Assembly: GCF_030646845.1 (NCBI RefSeq)
Contig: NZ_JAUSLE010000010.1
Span: forward strand, 1-64,000
Source: Rhodoferax sp.
GTDB lineage: Bacteria > Pseudomonadota > Gammaproteobacteria > Burkholderiales > Burkholderiaceae_C
Length of the DNA stretch: 64,000 bases
Direction: 5' to 3'
Made by a program: the position numbers and the translations under genes. This document shows, piece after piece, positions 8,299 to 54,201 of the stretch. A model generated the notes under the pieces. The model ran no database searches and had not been told where the DNA came from. It saw nothing but the letters and a program-made list of their open reading frames with translations. Numbering within the stretch: the stretch's first letter is position 1; every line of letters starts with the position of its first letter.

Positions 8299-10413
8299 TC
8301 AGGTTTTCTTCAAAGCCGCTGCGGCCCTCTTGCGTGGCGTGACCACCCGTTTGGCGGGCCCCACCTTCCTGGCTGGCCGCTCGCTCCTGGCGCGCGCCGC
8401 CAGTGCCAGTTCGCGCACCCGCTCGATGTCGGCATCGGAAAACACGCCGTTGACCCCGGAGATGGCCGCCAGCTTCATGCCATGCTTCAAGCCGAGGCGG
8501 TAGATTTCGCGCACCTTCTCCCATTCGATGGCGCGGCCCACGGTGTAGTTCTCGAACCGGCCTTCCAGCGCCAGCACGATGGTTTCGGCCAGACAGGCAT
8601 AGGCCACGTTTTTGGGCAGGCCGATGTTCTTCATCTCCACATCTCCGGGGAGCAGGATTTCGCCGGACTCGACCACCAGCACATCCGGGCGCTTGGCCAC
8701 CTCTTCGGGCGGCAGGTCCAGCGGGCGTGCCACATCGGTGATGACGCAGCCGGGCTTGACTTTCATGATGTCGAGCACCTTCTTGCCAGCGCCGGAGGTG
8801 GCGGTCACGATCATGTCCATGCCGGCGATGTCCTTGTCGGCCCGGGCCGCCAGGAACAAGCTGGCGTCTGGCGTCTCTTTCAGGATGGATTCCTTGAGCG
8901 AGAGCAATTTCGCGGTCTCGGGGGAGACAAGGTAAAGCTCCTCGGCGAAGGTAGCCAGCAGGCGGGCGCAGACGGAGCCGATGGCCCCCGTGGCGCCGAC
9001 CACCATGGCCTTGAATTGCACCTTCTCGCCTTTCTTCGGGGCGGACAGCAACCGCAGGCGCAGCAGGGCGTCATGCGCGGCCCACAGCGCGCCAGAGGCG
9101 CTGTAGCTGTTGCCGGTGGTGATGGGCAGGGGCGCGCGCTTGGCCACCGTCAGCCCCGCATCGCCCACCACTTTGGTGAAGGCGCCCAGGCCCATGATCT
9201 GTGCGCCCAGTCGCTTGGCCACGTCGGCCGCAGCCAGCAAACGGCGGTAGGTGAACTCGGGGCTATGGGCCATGATTTCTTTCGGTGTTCCCCCCACGGA
9301 GATCAACCACCCTTCGGCTTCCACGCCGGTGGGCGATTTGATGCCCGTCACCCTTGAGTAAACAAAGGGCGGGGCATAGGCCATCACCTTCTCGAGCGAG
9401 TTCATGAACAGCGGCGGCGAGACCTGCGACAGCAACTCGATGGGCTTGACGACCTTGAAATATTCCTGCGACAGGGGATGGATGACGAACGCAAAACGGT
9501 TGACGCGCCTGAATCCGTCAGGGTAAATAATGCGCGGCTCCACCTGCAAGTCGGTGATGATTTCCAGGTAATCGTCTTCCAGCAAGTCCTGCGGATCCTT
9601 GCCGGTGGCGGCGATGATCATGGCATCCAGGATATTGGGGCCCAGCACGTGGTTGAACATCGTCGGTGAACCGTCAATCACCATGTAGACGCCTTTGGCC
9701 TTGAACTGGGCCACCCGCTCCTCATTGACCGAGGACGTGATGATGGTCTTGCCGGCCAATTCTTCCGCGCTGAAATCGTCCAGTTCATGCACTGGCGCCA
9801 CAATCACGGTCGCCTTCTGCATCGCCTTGCGCAGCACGAAATGGGTCCACTCCTTCACCGGGGCGGATGACATCACAGCCGGGAGCACCCAGTCCGAAAC
9901 ATAGTGCGCGCCACCGGCATAGAGCTCCAGCGCGCTCAAGGAAGTCAACAGCTTGGGCACCCCGAGCTGCAGCAGAGGGTCGGCAAACTGCAGGTTCTGG
10001 CTGTACTCAGCCATGCACATGGCCAGCTTGTAATTGGTCAGGCCCGAGAAAAACAGGACTCTGGCGTTGTTGAAATAGTTGCCCAGCTTGATCTGCACGT
10101 GGCGCAGAGCCCACTCCTGCAGAATGTCATTGAGACGCCCACCCGTGGTCACCGGAATGCGTTTGACGACGCCCGTCATGCGGGCGCTGTCTTTTTCAAC
10201 GTAGCGACGGGAGCCCACGTTGTAGCTGTCTTTTGCCACCCCCAGCCCAATCACACTGGCCTGTTTTTCCCAGTGTTTCAACAGCTTCACGGCCCTGGTC
10301 GTGCTGCCGTCCGTGCCCAGACGCTGCACACTGATGCGCTGCCCCATGAACGGCGCCACAAACTCAAAATCCTGATCCCGCGCGCCCAGGCTGATACTGA
10401 CCACTTTTTTCAT
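8299..10413 (-). CDS. Long-chain acyl-ACP reductase (AAR)-like dehydrogenase with ~310-aa N-terminal extension
   Basis: C-terminal half carries AAR-like blocks: ITTGNSYSASGALWA, VVGATGAIGSVCARLL, CVITDVARPLDLP, ACLAETIVLALEGRFENYTVGRAIEWEKVREIYRLGLKHGM. Confidence 0.65.
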   Translation of the reverse strand: MKKVVSISLGARDQDFEFVAPFMGQRISVQRLGTDGSTTRAVKLLKHWEKQASVIGLGVAKDSYNVGSRRYVEKDSARMTGVVKRIPVTTGGRLNDILQEWALRHVQIKLGNYFNNARVLFFSGLTNYKLAMCMAEYSQNLQFADPLLQLGVPKLLTSLSALELYAGGAHYVSDWVLPAVMSSAPVKEWTHFVLRKAMQKATVIVAPVHELDDFSAEELAGKTIITSSVNEERVAQFKAKGVYMVIDGSPTMFNHVLGPNILDAMIIAATGKDPQDLLEDDYLEIITDLQVEPRIIYPDGFRRVNRFAFVIHPLSQEYFKVVKPIELLSQVSPPLFMNSLEKVMAYAPPFVYSRVTGIKSPTGVEAEGWLISVGGTPKEIMAHSPEFTYRRLLAAADVAKRLGAQIMGLGAFTKVVGDAGLTVAKRAPLPITTGNSYSASGALWAAHDALLRLRLLSAPKKGEKVQFKAMVVGATGAIGSVCARLLATFAEELYLVSPETAKLLSLKESILKETPDASLFLAARADKDIAGMDMIVTATSGAGKKVLDIMKVKPGCVITDVARPLDLPPEEVAKRPDVLVVESGEILLPGDVEMKNIGLPKNVAYACLAETIVLALEGRFENYTVGRAIEWEKVREIYRLGLKHGMKLAAISGVNGVFSDADIERVRELALAARARSERPARKVGPAKRVVTPRKRAAAALKKT

Positions 10414-10559
10414 ACATTCACACCGTGGAACTGTGGCAACTTTGAGGCAAGACACCGCACGACAGATTGATCCCTGTCAACCCACAACGTTCTTTCCCGC
10501 CACCTAATCGGACTGCTTTCGCGGTCAAAATACCGGGGCAGACAAGCGCTACAAGGGGA

Positions 10560-31822: not shown

Positions 31823-32083
31823 TTAGCGGGAATCCGGCAATTCGATCTTGACCTCCAGCACTTCGAGATTGTCCTGGCGCTCCAGGTTCACCTTGATATC
31901 TGCCGGGTTGATCTTGATGTACTTGCTGATCACGGCCACCAGTTCACGCTGCAGGGCCGGCAGGTAATCGGGCTCGGCCGCATTGCGGCCACTACGCTCG
32001 TGCGCCAGGATGATTTGCAGCCGCTCTTTGGCGACGTTGGCAGTTTTCTTTTTTTCACCAACAAAAAAAGAGAGAAATGACAT
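31823..32083 (-). CDS. minE: Cell division topological specificity factor MinE
   Basis: [58 protein letters not shown]; directly downstream of minD. Confidence 0.95.
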
Positions 32084-32087
32084 GGCC

Positions 32088-32903
32088 TTATTTCCCACCG
32101 AAGAGTCGTTTCAGAAGCCCCTGTTTGGGTGCATCGGTAAAGCGCATGGGCTTGTCCTCACCCAAAAAGCGGTCAATCACGTCCTTGTAGGCCTCTGACA
32201 CGTCGCTGCCCTGCATGTGCACCGCCGGCACGCCCTGATTGGAGGCCTGCAGCACCGATTCACTCTCGGGAATGACACCGATGAGCTTGATGCGCAGGAT
32301 GTCCTGAATATCTTCCAGCGACAGCATCTGGCCCTGGTTCACCCGCGCCGGGTTGTAGCGGGTAATGAGCAAATGCTCCTTGATCGGGTCCAGCCCTTCA
32401 ATGGCGCGTTTGGTCTTGCTGGAGAGCATGCCCAGAATACGGTCCGAATCGCGCACCGAGGACACCTCGGGGTTGGTCACCACCAGCGCTTCGTCGGCAA
32501 AGTGCATGGCCATCAGGGCGCCAGTCTCGATGCCCGCTGGCGAGTCGCACACGATGTACTCAAAATCCATGGCGGCCAGGTCGGTCAACACTTTCTCGAC
32601 GCCGTCCTGCGACAGGGCGTCCTTGTCACGCGTTTGCGACGCGGCCAACACGTACAGGTTGTCGCACTGCTTGTCCTTGATCAGAGCCTGGTTAAGGTTG
32701 GCTTCACCATGGATGACATTGATCAGGTCATACACCACGCGGCGTTCACAACCCATGATCAGGTCCAGGTTGCGCAAACCGACGTCGAAGTCGATCACGG
32801 CGGTCTTGTGCCCGCGCAGGGCCAGACCGGTCGCAAAGCTGGCGCTGGTGGTTGTTTTACCCACACCACCTTTGCCGGAGGTAACCACAATGATTTTTGC
32901 CAT
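32088..32903 (-). CDS. minD: Septum site-determining protein MinD
   Basis: [62 protein letters not shown]-terminal amphipathic [10 protein letters not shown]. Confidence 0.97.
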
Positions 32904-32929: not shown

Positions 32930-33718
32930 TTAGGTTTTCAGGGCTTCGATCAGCAGCTTGTCCTGCCCATCGTTGCTCAAACGCACCTGCGCCGGCTTGC
33001 CACGCACGTCAGGCTCCAGCGGGTTCTCGCTGGTGCGGTACACGCCCGCAATGGAAATCAGCTCGGGCTCCAGGCACAGCGAGAAAATGCGCGCGTTGGT
33101 GTTGCCACTGGCGCCGGCCATGGCCTTGCCGCGCAGGGGCGCATACACATGGATGTTGCCGTCTGCCACCACTTCGGCGCCCTGGTTGACCATGGCCAGA
33201 ACGACCAGATCAGCGCCGCGGGCGTAGATTTTTTGCCCGGATCGCAGGGGTTTGTCCACCACCATGGTGAGCTGGCCCGGGATTTCACGCACGATCTCCC
33301 TGACCACCTCTTGGACCACGTATTCGGTCGGCGCCGTGGCCGCAGCCGCCGGTCGAACCCGCGGCGCATCGACCGGCGCTTCAACCAGACCCAGCGCGAG
33401 GGCCGATTGCATCCAGGCCGTACTGGCACCACGCACCGCCAAAGGCACCAGCCGACAGGACCGCAATACCCTCAACAAGGGCTTCAGATCTTGCAGCGGC
33501 GTGTCTGGCGCCAGCTGCGAAAAATCGATCACCAGGGCGTCATGGTCAAAAAAATCCGGGTTCTCGCCGGCAACACCGTATTGCTTTTCCAGATCAGCTG
33601 CCAGCAAGTTCCAGTCATTGGTCTTGAGCATCAACGCGACCAATGGCAATTGGGCACTTTTTATTTCAAAAGAGGCAGACGTGTGGCCAGGCGAATTGCC
33701 TGCGGAAGAAACGGACAT
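32930..33718 (-). CDS. minC: Septum site-determining protein MinC
   Basis: [75 protein letters not shown]. Confidence 0.95.
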
Positions 33719-33931
33719 TGGGGAATGAAGAAGCAGTAGAGGACGGTTGAGCTGCGGACAAAAAAAGGACAAACGACTGGAAAGAAACACCAGACGCCGG
33801 GACTCAGCAGAGGACCGATTTTACTTGATTGCGTCAAGCCAAACCAGAACTCTGCCAGCTTCTTTCACAGGTTTTCGTAAGCAAACGTCTGGCCGGCGTG
33901 AGCATATTTTTTTGATGCGGGTTTGTTTGCA

Positions 33932-34146
33932 CTTATCTTCTTATTTATCTATTTAAAAGATAGTAGTAGTAGATAGAGTGTTGCGATCTTTGTGGACAAG
34001 AAGATTTTATTCATACCAATCAATAACTTAGCTATGGTCAATCAATGTGCGCGACCATGCTTTTGTACTGTACCCCGAATCTGGATAACTTCACCCGACT
34101 TGATTTTCCTGTGGATAACTATGATCTTGTGCCGGAACTATTCACA
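33932..34146. other. Origin-like element: AT-rich tract + DnaA-trio-like TAG repeats + DnaA-box cluster
   Basis: ttatcttcttatttatctatttaaaaga then TAGTAGTAGTAGATAG (33961-33976), then 9-mers TGTGGACAA (33991-33999), TTATTCATA (34007-34015), TCTGGATAA (34080-34088), TGTGGATAA perfect (34110-34118), CTATTCACA (34138-34146); lies in a divergent intergenic gap. Confidence 0.6.
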
Positions 34147-34334
34147 GGGTTGTTCCTTGACAGATTTTAGTGCGTGGGGGCAATGCCAGACATGGGCTGG
34201 TGGCGAGTAAAACCGGCGTTGCGCCAGAAACAGGGGAGTCAGTGCGTCCTGAACGGGGCTGAAGGGCAGTTGATCTGCATCAAGGCGAGTTGACCCGTCG
34301 CATGCCATGCTTGCAGCAAAGAAGGAGATATGCC

Positions 34335-34919
34335 ATGGCCCATGAAAGCATTCGGATTATTCGCGATGAGCATGCTGCGCTGGCGGCGATGTTGCGTTCG
34401 CTCGGCATGATGGTCGAACGTGGCCCGGTCAATGAGCCTGAGGGTTTTTTTGATGTGTTGCGGGCGATGCTGTTCTACATCGACGAGTTTCCGGAACGCC
34501 TGCATCACCCAAAAGAGTCGGAGTTGCTCTTCCCCCGGGTGGCGCGTCTGGCGCCTGAGACCGTGGAAGTCATTGCCCGGCTGGACCATGACCACGCGAA
34601 AGGCGAGTCGGCGGTGCGGGAGTTACAACACCTGTTGCTGGCCTGGGAACTGGTTGGCGATGCCAGGCGTGAGGCGTTTGACCAGGCCGCGAAGAAGTAT
34701 CTTGATTTCTATCTGGAGCACATGCGCCTCGAAGAAACCGTGATTTTGCCCGCAGCACAAAAGGTGCTGAATGAGGCGGACTGGAAAGAACTCGACGCTG
34801 CCTTTGCCACCAACTGCGATCCCCTGACCGGCAAATACCCGCGGGACCCGGCCTATGACCGGCTGTTCACCCGCATCGTGATGCGGGCGCCCGCGCCGAT
34901 TGGCTTGGGCGAGGGTTAA
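34335..34919 (+). CDS. Hemerythrin HHE domain protein
   Basis: IIRDEHAALAAML, FPERLHHPKESELLFP, DHDHAKGE, YLDFYLEHMRLEETVILPAA; strong SD AAGGAG. Confidence 0.9.
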   Translation: MAHESIRIIRDEHAALAAMLRSLGMMVERGPVNEPEGFFDVLRAMLFYIDEFPERLHHPKESELLFPRVARLAPETVEVIARLDHDHAKGESAVRELQHLLLAWELVGDARREAFDQAAKKYLDFYLEHMRLEETVILPAAQKVLNEADWKELDAAFATNCDPLTGKYPRDPAYDRLFTRIVMRAPAPIGLGEG

Positions 34920-51463: not shown

Positions 51464-53521
51464 ATGCTTTATCCACAGAATTTCGACGTCATCGTTGTTG
51501 GCGGCGGTCACGCCGGTACCGAGGCGGCCCTGGCCGCCGCCCGCATGGGCTGCAAGACCCTGCTGCTCAGCCACAACATCGAAACCCTGGGCCAGATGAG
51601 CTGCAACCCGTCGATTGGCGGCATCGGCAAGGGCCATCTGGTCAAGGAAGTGGACGCCATGGGTGGCGCCATGGCGGCGGCGACCGATGAAAGTGGCATC
51701 CAGTTTCGCATTCTCAATTCCAGCAAGGGGCCGGCCGTGCGCGCCACCCGCGCCCAGGCAGATCGCGTGCTGTACAAGGCGGCCATTCGCCACCGGCTGG
51801 AAAACCAGCCCAACCTCTGGCTGTTCCAGCAGGCGGTGGACGACCTGATGGTGGAGGGCGACCGGGTGGTGGGGGCGGTAACCCAAGTGGGCATCAAGTT
51901 TCGCGCCAAGACCGTGGTGCTGACGGCCGGGACTTTTCTGGATGGCAAGATCCATGTGGGCCTGAACAATTATGCGGCCGGCCGGGCCGGGGACCCGCCA
52001 GCGGTTTCCCTGAGTGCGCGCTTGAAAGAGCTGAAGCTGCCGCAGGGCCGGCTGAAAACCGGCACACCGCCGCGGCTCGATGGCCGCTCGATTGACTTCA
52101 GCAAGTGCATTGAGCAGCCCGGTGACGGCATGCCCGGCGGCATGAGCGCGGCCATGCCGGTGTTCAGCTTCATGGGCCGCGCCGAGCAGCACCCGGCGCA
52201 AATGTCATGCTGGATGACCCATACCAATGAGCGCACCCACGACATCATCCGCAGCGGCTTTGACCGCAGCCCCATGTTCACCGGCAAGATCGAGGGCGTC
52301 GGCCCGCGCTATTGCCCGAGTGTCGAAGACAAGATCAACCGCTTTGCCGACAAGGACAGCCACCAGATTTTTCTGGAACCCGAAGGCCTGACGACGAACG
52401 AGTATTACCCGAACGGCATCAGCACCAGTCTGCCCTTTGACATTCAGTACGAACTCGTGCGCTCGATGGCCGGCCTGGAGAACGCCCACATCCTGCGCCC
52501 GGGCTACGCCATTGAGTACGACTACTTCGATCCGCAGCAGCTCAAAAGCAGTTTCGAGACGCGGGCCATTGGCGGCCTGTTCTTTGCTGGCCAGATCAAT
52601 GGCACGACCGGCTACGAAGAGGCCGCTGCCCAGGGCATGTTCGCCGGTATCAATGCCGCGTTGCAGGCCGGTGCCAAAACCGCGTGGCAGCAGGACACCT
52701 GGGTGCCGGGTCGGGACGAGGCCTACCTGGGTGTGCTGGTGGATGACCTTATTACCAAGGGCGTGACCGAGCCCTACCGCATGTTCACCAGCCGCGCCGA
52801 GTACCGCCTGCAACTGCGCGAAGACAACGCCGACGTGCGTTTGACCGAAGTAGGGCGGCAGCTGGGTTTGGTGGATGATGCCCGTTGGGATGCTTTCAGC
52901 CGCAAACGCGATGCTGTTTCACGTGAAACAGAGCGGCTTAAATCAATCTGGATCAGCCCTAAAAATGTGTCTGCACCAGAAGCTGAGCGTGTTTTTGGCA
53001 AGGCCTTGGAGCATGAGTACAACCTGCTCGAATTGTTGCGCCGCCCCGATGTGGACTACGCGGCGCTGATGAGTCTGGAGTCGGCCAAGTTTGCGAACCC
53101 TGTTGTTATTGCCCTTGTCCCGATGGATGTTTCACGTGAAACATCAGTTGATTCGAGCGCTTTGTTTCAAACCGAACAAGCCAGAGCGGTGATTGAGCAG
53201 ATCGAAATCGTCGCTAAATACTCCGGCTACATTGACCGTCAACACGCGGAAGTGGAGCGGGCGCTGCACTTTGAAAGCTTCAAATTGCCGCCGGATATGG
53301 ACTACGCCCAGGTGACCGCACTCAGCATCGAGGCGCGCCAGACCCTCGCCAAACACAAGCCGCAGACGCTGGGTTTGGCGTCGCGCATCTCGGGCGTCAC
53401 GCCTGCGACGGTGTCTTTGCTCTTGGTCTACCTGAAAAAGAATGGCTATAAAGGGTTTTCTGGCAAGGGAGTAGAGGTCGAAGCTTTGGTGGCTGTCGCT
53501 ATAGAGGTGGCGGCAGAATGA
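51464..53521 (+). CDS. mnmG: tRNA uridine-5-carboxymethylaminomethyl modification enzyme MnmG (GidA)
   Basis: [68 protein letters not shown]. Confidence 0.98.
52915..52930. promoter_or_regulatory. parS site 1 (inside mnmG)
   Basis: TGTTTCACGTGAAACA, exact match to the canonical 16-bp parS palindrome. Confidence 0.92.
53128..53143. promoter_or_regulatory. parS site 2 (inside mnmG)
   Basis: TGTTTCACGTGAAACA, exact match. Confidence 0.92.
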
Positions 53522-54201
53522 CGCAATCAGTGACAGGAGTGATCTCATCCAATCCGTATGAGTCAACGTTAAGGCAGGGCGCCAACGCGCTGGGTTTGAG
53601 TCTCAACGACCGCCAAATCGCCCAGCTCTTGGGCTACCATGCCCTGATTCAAAAGTGGAACAAGGTCTACAACCTGACGGCGGTACGCGACCCGGCGGAG
53701 ATGTTGACGCATCATTTGCTGGACAGCTTGGCGATTGTTACTCCGCTCATTCGTCAAACGGCTGGTGCGTCCATCAATATGCTTGATGTGGGGGCAGGGG
53801 CCGGCCTGCCCGGCGTGGTGGTGGCGATCTGCTGCCCACAGGTGTCGGTCACCTGTGTCGATGCCGTGGCCAAGAAGATGGCGTTTGTGCAGCAGGTGGC
53901 GACCGAGTTGAAATTGCCGAATCTCAAGGCACTGCATTCCCGCGTCGAGGTATTGACGCAGAAGTTTGATCTGATCACGTCACGGGCCTTTGCGACGCTG
54001 GCGGATTTTGTGACCGGATCGCGGGCGGCGTTGAAGCCTGGTACGGGCGTGTGGCTGGCGATGAAGGGCAGGGATACGTCGGCTGAAGTGGCTGCTTTGC
54101 CGGCTGATGTGACCGTGTTTCACGTGGAACAATTGACGGTTCCAGGCTTGGATGCGGAGCGGCGCATCGTTTGGATGAAGATGGCTATATCTGCCGGATA
54201 A
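53518..54201 (+). CDS. rsmG: 16S rRNA (guanine527-N7)-methyltransferase RsmG (GidB)
   Basis: [46 protein letters not shown]; follows mnmG. Confidence 0.95.
54116..54131. promoter_or_regulatory. parS-like site 3 (inside rsmG), one mismatch
   Basis: TGTTTCACGTGGAACA (A to G at position 12 of the consensus). Confidence 0.65.

Follow-up and report, generated by a model that had tools for sequence, protein, structure and literature searches.

The dnaA-dnaN gap is the classical site of oriC. In a Rhodoferax sp., an origin-like stretch was noticed between minC and a hemerythrin-domain gene, raising the question of whether the chromosomal origin of this bacterium has left dnaA; how a bacterial origin changes place is an old question. 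Origin finders take dnaA as an indicator of oriC (PMC10225481), and chromosomes with a remote origin, or with two predicted ones, have been described (PMC8287927, PMC6323995, PMC4403523). The window analysed here is a stretch of 64,000 nucleotides, bases 1-64000 of the 82.5-kb contig C88, taken from a 4.35-Mb draft assembly of 88 contigs with a contamination estimate of 6.5%. The element lies at least 34 kb from the ends of C88, and dnaA is carried by another contig, C76, where 10 kb or more separate it from a contig end, so that the element does not occupy the canonical position beside dnaA.

The gap is divergent and non-coding and spans 613 bp (33722-34334) between the start of minC at 33721 on the minus strand and that of the hemerythrin-domain gene at 34335 on the plus strand, both domains being confirmed by Pfam. 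Its GC content is 47%, falling to 40% in the core, and the surroundings have about 62%. When the gap was compared by blastn with relatives of the genus, only query bases 204-443 were conserved, with 67-93% identity and in differing gene contexts. Two models of this conserved element were used. R1 is a sequence-only model built from 18 Rhodoferax copies, the window genome (G000) being one of the 18 rows, and R2 was built exclusively from dnaA-dnaN copies of other genera (16 in all), a restriction that avoids circularity. The features of the locus are the following.

31823-32098: minE (Pfam MinE)
32088-32903: minD (ParA/MinD-type ATPase domains)
32930-33721, minus strand: minC, first gene of minCDE (Pfam MinC_C and MinC_N)
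33722-34334: non-coding divergent gap, 47% GC (sequence; Pfam minC and hemerythrin)
33927-34166, plus strand: conserved ~240-bp module, predicted oriC element (R1 match, E=2.5e-44; R2 match)
33934-33960, plus strand: AT-rich tract, probable DNA unwinding element, judged from sequence
33961-33976, plus strand: DnaA-trios TAGTAGTAGTAGATAG, i.e., TAGTAGTAGTAG followed by ATAG, 3'-GAT-5' when read away from the box
33977-33990, plus strand: 14-bp spacer from the trios to the first DnaA box, within the rule of at most 16 bp (PMC8287927)
33991-33999, minus strand: DnaA box TTGTCCACA (TGTGGACAA on the plus strand), the one nearest the trios, conserved as YGTGGAYAA in relatives
34007-34015: box-like TTATTCATA, not conserved in relatives
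34018-34030, plus strand: predicted IHF site, exact match to the consensus, WATCAANNNNTTR (AATCAATAACTTA)
34046-34054, minus strand: weak DnaA-box-like TGTGCGCGA, its TGT invariant in relatives, marking a conserved TGTG(G)G block
34080-34088, minus strand: DnaA box TTATCCAGA (TCTGGATAA on the plus strand), a TGRAYAACTT-like block in relatives
34110-34118, minus strand: perfect DnaA box TTATCCACA (TGTGGATAA on the plus strand), conserved in relatives
34138-34146, plus strand: DnaA box CTATTCACA, CTATCCCCA or CTATNCACA in relatives
34335-34919, plus strand: hemerythrin-domain gene (Pfam), the same neighbour in relatives (L093, L094, L112, L113, L120)
52915-54131, plus strand: parS cluster, TGTTTCACGTGAAACA at 52915 and 53128 (exact) and TGTTTCACGTGGAACA at 54116 (one mismatch)

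The order given by the sequence-only reading, an AT-rich divergent non-coding gap with an AT tract, TAGTAGTAGTAGATAG and then DnaA boxes, was recovered as described when the sequence was re-read. Four of the five DnaA-box-like 9-mers that it listed are conserved in relatives, but TTATTCATA is not and is probably a chance match, and the exact IHF consensus at 34018-34030 had been overlooked. The 18 aligned Rhodoferax copies are nearly collinear, sharing the trios, the YGTGGAYAA box, an IHF-like core, the TGTG block, the TGRAYAACTT-like box, TGTGGATAA and CTATNCACA. The trios are near-invariant both in these copies and in the dnaA-dnaN gap copies of other genera, and the TCA...TTR core of the predicted IHF site is at the same place in both the Rhodoferax and the R2 alignments. 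The AT tract is AT-rich in relatives too, its letters being poorly conserved.

A basal unwinding system, consisting of DnaA-box, spacer and DnaA-trios, has been described for most bacterial origins (PMC8287927). In the window element, a DnaA box (TGTGGACAA) is separated by the 14-bp spacer, hence by less than 16 bp, from at least three correctly oriented trios (four TAG and ATAG), which adjoin the AT-rich region at 33934-33960 that is predicted to unwind. The window element agrees with the basal unwinding system of B. subtilis (PMC8287927) in how trios, spacer and box are ordered and oriented, in a spacer (14 bp) that keeps to the 16-bp limit and in having at least four TAG trios, and differs from it by lying beside minC rather than dnaA and by its extra IHF site. 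With the oriC of E. coli, located between mnmG and mioC, it has in common a position away from dnaA, an IHF site, several DnaA boxes, an AT-rich unwinding region and the presence of mnmG in the region. Unlike E. coli oriC, it is situated in the minC gap about 17 kb from mnmG, its letter-level homology is to dnaA-dnaN origins of the same family, and its position varies within one genus. The IHF site makes the window element resemble E. coli more than B. subtilis.

R1 matches were found in 85 of 90 Rhodoferax genomes, including 50 of the 51 good ones, mostly as a single copy; the window's assembly contains a single full-length match, and some genomes of the genus are doubled. At the family level, 142 of 151 genomes and 132 of 141 genera gave a match. 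An order-level search outside the family returned any match in 18 of 60 genomes, and because matches there are mostly weak or absent, R1 says nothing on other families.

The position of the element relative to dnaA could be read in 79 family genomes outside the genus, in which both are on one contig. In 39 of these, the element is less than 1 kb from the dnaA C-terminal domain and, at the inspected loci, sits in the dnaA-dnaN gap. In the remaining 40, it is 7.9 to 459 kb from dnaA, several of the distant copies being directly upstream of minC; in seven genomes, the distance to the MinC domain is 0.8-0.9 kb. The largest separation, 459 kb, was seen on a 4.8-Mb contig (G059 C1). In Rhodoferax, none of the 20 placeable genomes has the element in the dnaA-dnaN gap, the distances ranging from 8 to 190 kb with the exception of G122. 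R2, which contains no Rhodoferax copy, detects the elements of nearly all genomes of the genus, and its best match in the window genome is the window element (33936-34160, 107 bits, E=1.4e-30). Together with the alignment, this match establishes homology to the canonical dnaA-dnaN origin.

The dnaA-dnaN gap of the window genome measures 97 bp and holds no intact trios or boxes. It nonetheless provides the second R2 match in this genome (model positions 2-100, 36.5 bits, E=9.6e-9), in which the trio and box letters are substituted and the surrounding letters retained. Part of this match corresponds to the conserved dnaN start, and positions 22-98, taken without it, still score 17.7 bits. Comparable partial R2 matches lie beside dnaA in about 17 genomes of the genus. 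They may represent decayed origins, a reading kept conditional by the conserved CCATTTTCCCC stretch, which could have another role. The claim of an origin-like element away from dnaA withstood this check of the competing site, as the dnaA-dnaN gap contains only a probable remnant and, in the window genome, R1 and R2 both fail to detect a full-length copy in the vicinity of dnaA.

The rpmH-dnaA gap of the window genome (L005 2300-2563, on C76) contains three DnaA-box-like sites, TGTGGATAA, TAATCCATA and CTATCCACA, and no trios; the three sites possibly serve dnaA autoregulation. They also speak for a working origin that is still at dnaA, in the rpmH-dnaA gap, the minC element being a second, silent or backup copy, as does the relative G122, where one complete copy occupies the rpmH-dnaA gap and another lies beside minC. 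This alternative is very improbable, given that the surroundings of dnaA in the window genome offer neither a full-length copy nor trios and that the dnaA-dnaN gap has only the probable remnant.

GC skew, which had been proposed as a check on the locus, bears on the same alternative. Within the window, no sign change of the skew was found at 34 kb, the skew only becoming more positive rightwards, and a whole-genome skew is precluded for the window genome by its 88-contig draft state. In the closed relative G233, one of the two copies lies in the same HHE-minC gap (L113). A two-arm skew fit, based on 400 kb of local sequence and a further 360 kb that was sampled, placed the switch of this chromosome at 3.17-3.195 Mb (block bootstrap 95%, 3.14-3.26 Mb), beside the element copies at 3.171 and 3.176 Mb. 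The dnaA site (3.327 Mb, 150 kb off) was 14.9 log units worse, hence an origin at dnaA is rejected in G233 by about 15 log units. The skew of G182, in contrast, leans to dnaA: relative to the dnaA region at 85 kb, the fit is somewhat poorer at both element copies, at 283 kb (delta logL -3.3) and at 305 kb (delta logL -4.3), a disagreement that a recent move might explain. In G122, an element copy is 14.5 kb from dnaA, too close for the skew to tell them apart, and the skew of G211 was not discriminating. The proposed skew minimum was found beside the element in G233, and the skew of G182 tends towards dnaA.

The genes mnmG, rsmG, parA-like and parB and the parS sites, which the sequence-only reading had pointed to as origin-proximal markers, were found at 51.3-57.5 kb in the window. 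The parS cluster is located within mnmG-rsmG, ahead of the parA/parB genes and about 19 kb from the element, with a chance expectation of 0.17 (up to 3 mismatches), while no parS was found from -42 to +11 kb around dnaA of the window genome. In most bacteria, parS is known to lie close to the origin (PMC4091711). The distance of parS from the element compared with dnaA is 22-27 vs 177 kb in G233, 10-32 vs 222 kb in G182, 12 vs 85 kb in G211 and 36 vs 50 kb in G122. Hence parS is closer to the element than to dnaA in all four relatives where both were placed, which argues further against an origin at dnaA, and in five genomes its distance to the closest copy of the element is 10-36 kb. The mnmG gene itself was located at about 51.48-53.52 kb, and the ORF at 8299-10455, considered as a candidate for mnmG, was rejected. 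A lone perfect DnaA box, TTATCCACA (51469-51477), without trios, directly precedes the probable start of mnmG at about 51482.

From the homology to dnaA-dnaN origins of other genera, the skew of G233, the position of parS and the remnant in the vacated gap, the element is very probably the DnaA-dependent chromosomal oriC of this Rhodoferax, relocated from dnaA-dnaN. The same evidence supports the earlier proposal of a chromosomal oriC uncoupled from dnaA. At this predicted origin, DnaA would bind the first box (33991-33999) as well as those lying downstream (34080-34146), and IHF would bend the DNA at 34018-34030, folding the downstream boxes back. Starting at the first box, DnaA-ATP would then extend along the TAG repeats, bound as single-stranded DnaA-trios, and melt the AT tract at 33934-33960, allowing the helicase to be loaded. 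Upon firing, two forks would depart, one crossing minC and the other heading for parS by way of the hemerythrin gene.

A datA/DARS-like or accessory element had been the other reading suggested from sequence. In E. coli, datA and DARS carry DnaA boxes and an IHF site away from dnaA, a description that the window element also fits. However, neither DnaA-trios nor an AT tract is known from datA or DARS, and few letters of the element are as well conserved as its trios. Furthermore, the same element occupies the dnaA-dnaN gaps of other genera, and the search of the genome yielded no second full-length copy that could act as origin. Boxes and an IHF site devoid of an unwinding module and accompanied by a separate oriC, as would characterise such a site, are thus not what is seen here. 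A DnaA titration or reactivation site that is not an origin is accordingly very unlikely, and this suggestion was abandoned in favour of the relocated oriC.

Nowhere else on the 82.5-kb contig are DnaA boxes clustered as densely as in the element, with 5 boxes of at most 2 mismatches in 200 bp, a density reached by 0.23% of 3000 simulated random 290-nt sequences of matched dinucleotide composition. Much more weight attaches to conservation than to this box-count statistic. AT-rich gaps do raise the number of near-matches and one of the five listed boxes is unconserved, but a chance cluster in the AT-rich promoter region of minC or the hemerythrin gene can be dismissed, being rare by composition alone and refuted by the conservation of the element in nearly all of the family genomes searched. 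As this conservation extends across many different gene contexts, the element is not tied to either flanking promoter; regulation of the minC promoter was considered as its role and rejected.

Several relatives carry two full-length copies, which are about 0.5-0.6 kb apart in G211, G229, G154 and G242 and 4.8 kb apart in G233. In G182, the copies are 22 kb apart (C3:283017 and C3:305497; L053 and L038), one upstream of a diguanylate-cyclase-type gene and the other in the minC-hemerythrin gap, and in G133 they are at dnaA-dnaN and near minC. Such doubled copies are what a duplicate-then-lose route would leave. Judging from the relatives, the origin would first have been in the dnaA-dnaN gap, a copy would then have arisen elsewhere nearby, here beside minC, and the old dnaA-dnaN site would afterwards have decayed to a remnant, a later rearrangement moving dnaA further from the new origin. 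As a tentative and somewhat doubtful generalisation, the oriC of the family could be a module able to copy itself into another gap close by, with two copies coexisting (as in G122, G182, G233 and G133) until the old one is lost, such that the origin repeatedly leaves dnaA and both copies may fire in two-copy species. In the open-licence literature searched, on oriC of Comamonadaceae, Rhodoferax or Variovorax and on natural oriC relocation, no description of such relocation in this family was found.

Cases reported through Ori-Finder/DoriC, namely Synechococcus lividus (PMC6323995) and Dehalobacter and Ralstonia pickettii 12D (PMC4403523), are similar in that the origin is far from dnaA or that a single chromosome has two predicted ones. 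They differ in that, in the present case, homology of the moved copies to the dnaA-dnaN origin can still be recognised, the old site is marked by remnants and the same pattern is repeated across a family. The anatomy of the predicted element is of a known type, and the new part, computational only, is the recurrent relocation with doubled copies and remnants. On this prediction, dnaA-based oriC calls would miss the origin by some 8 to 460 kb in about one in two of the placeable family genomes outside the genus, and likewise in nearly all placeable Rhodoferax. The position of the origin underlies both metagenome growth-rate estimates, which are derived from coverage ratios, and studies of strand bias. 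In addition, the series of states, from a dnaA-dnaN origin through two copies to a minC origin with a remnant, makes origin relocation testable across living species.

Some genomes depart from the copy numbers given above. Three origin-model matches are found on one contig of G251 (C32), and G053 has five. In G213, a closed genome of the same genus (C1, 3.0 Mb), the only model match is a weak partial one at 2.006 Mb, with dnaA at ~1.3 kb.
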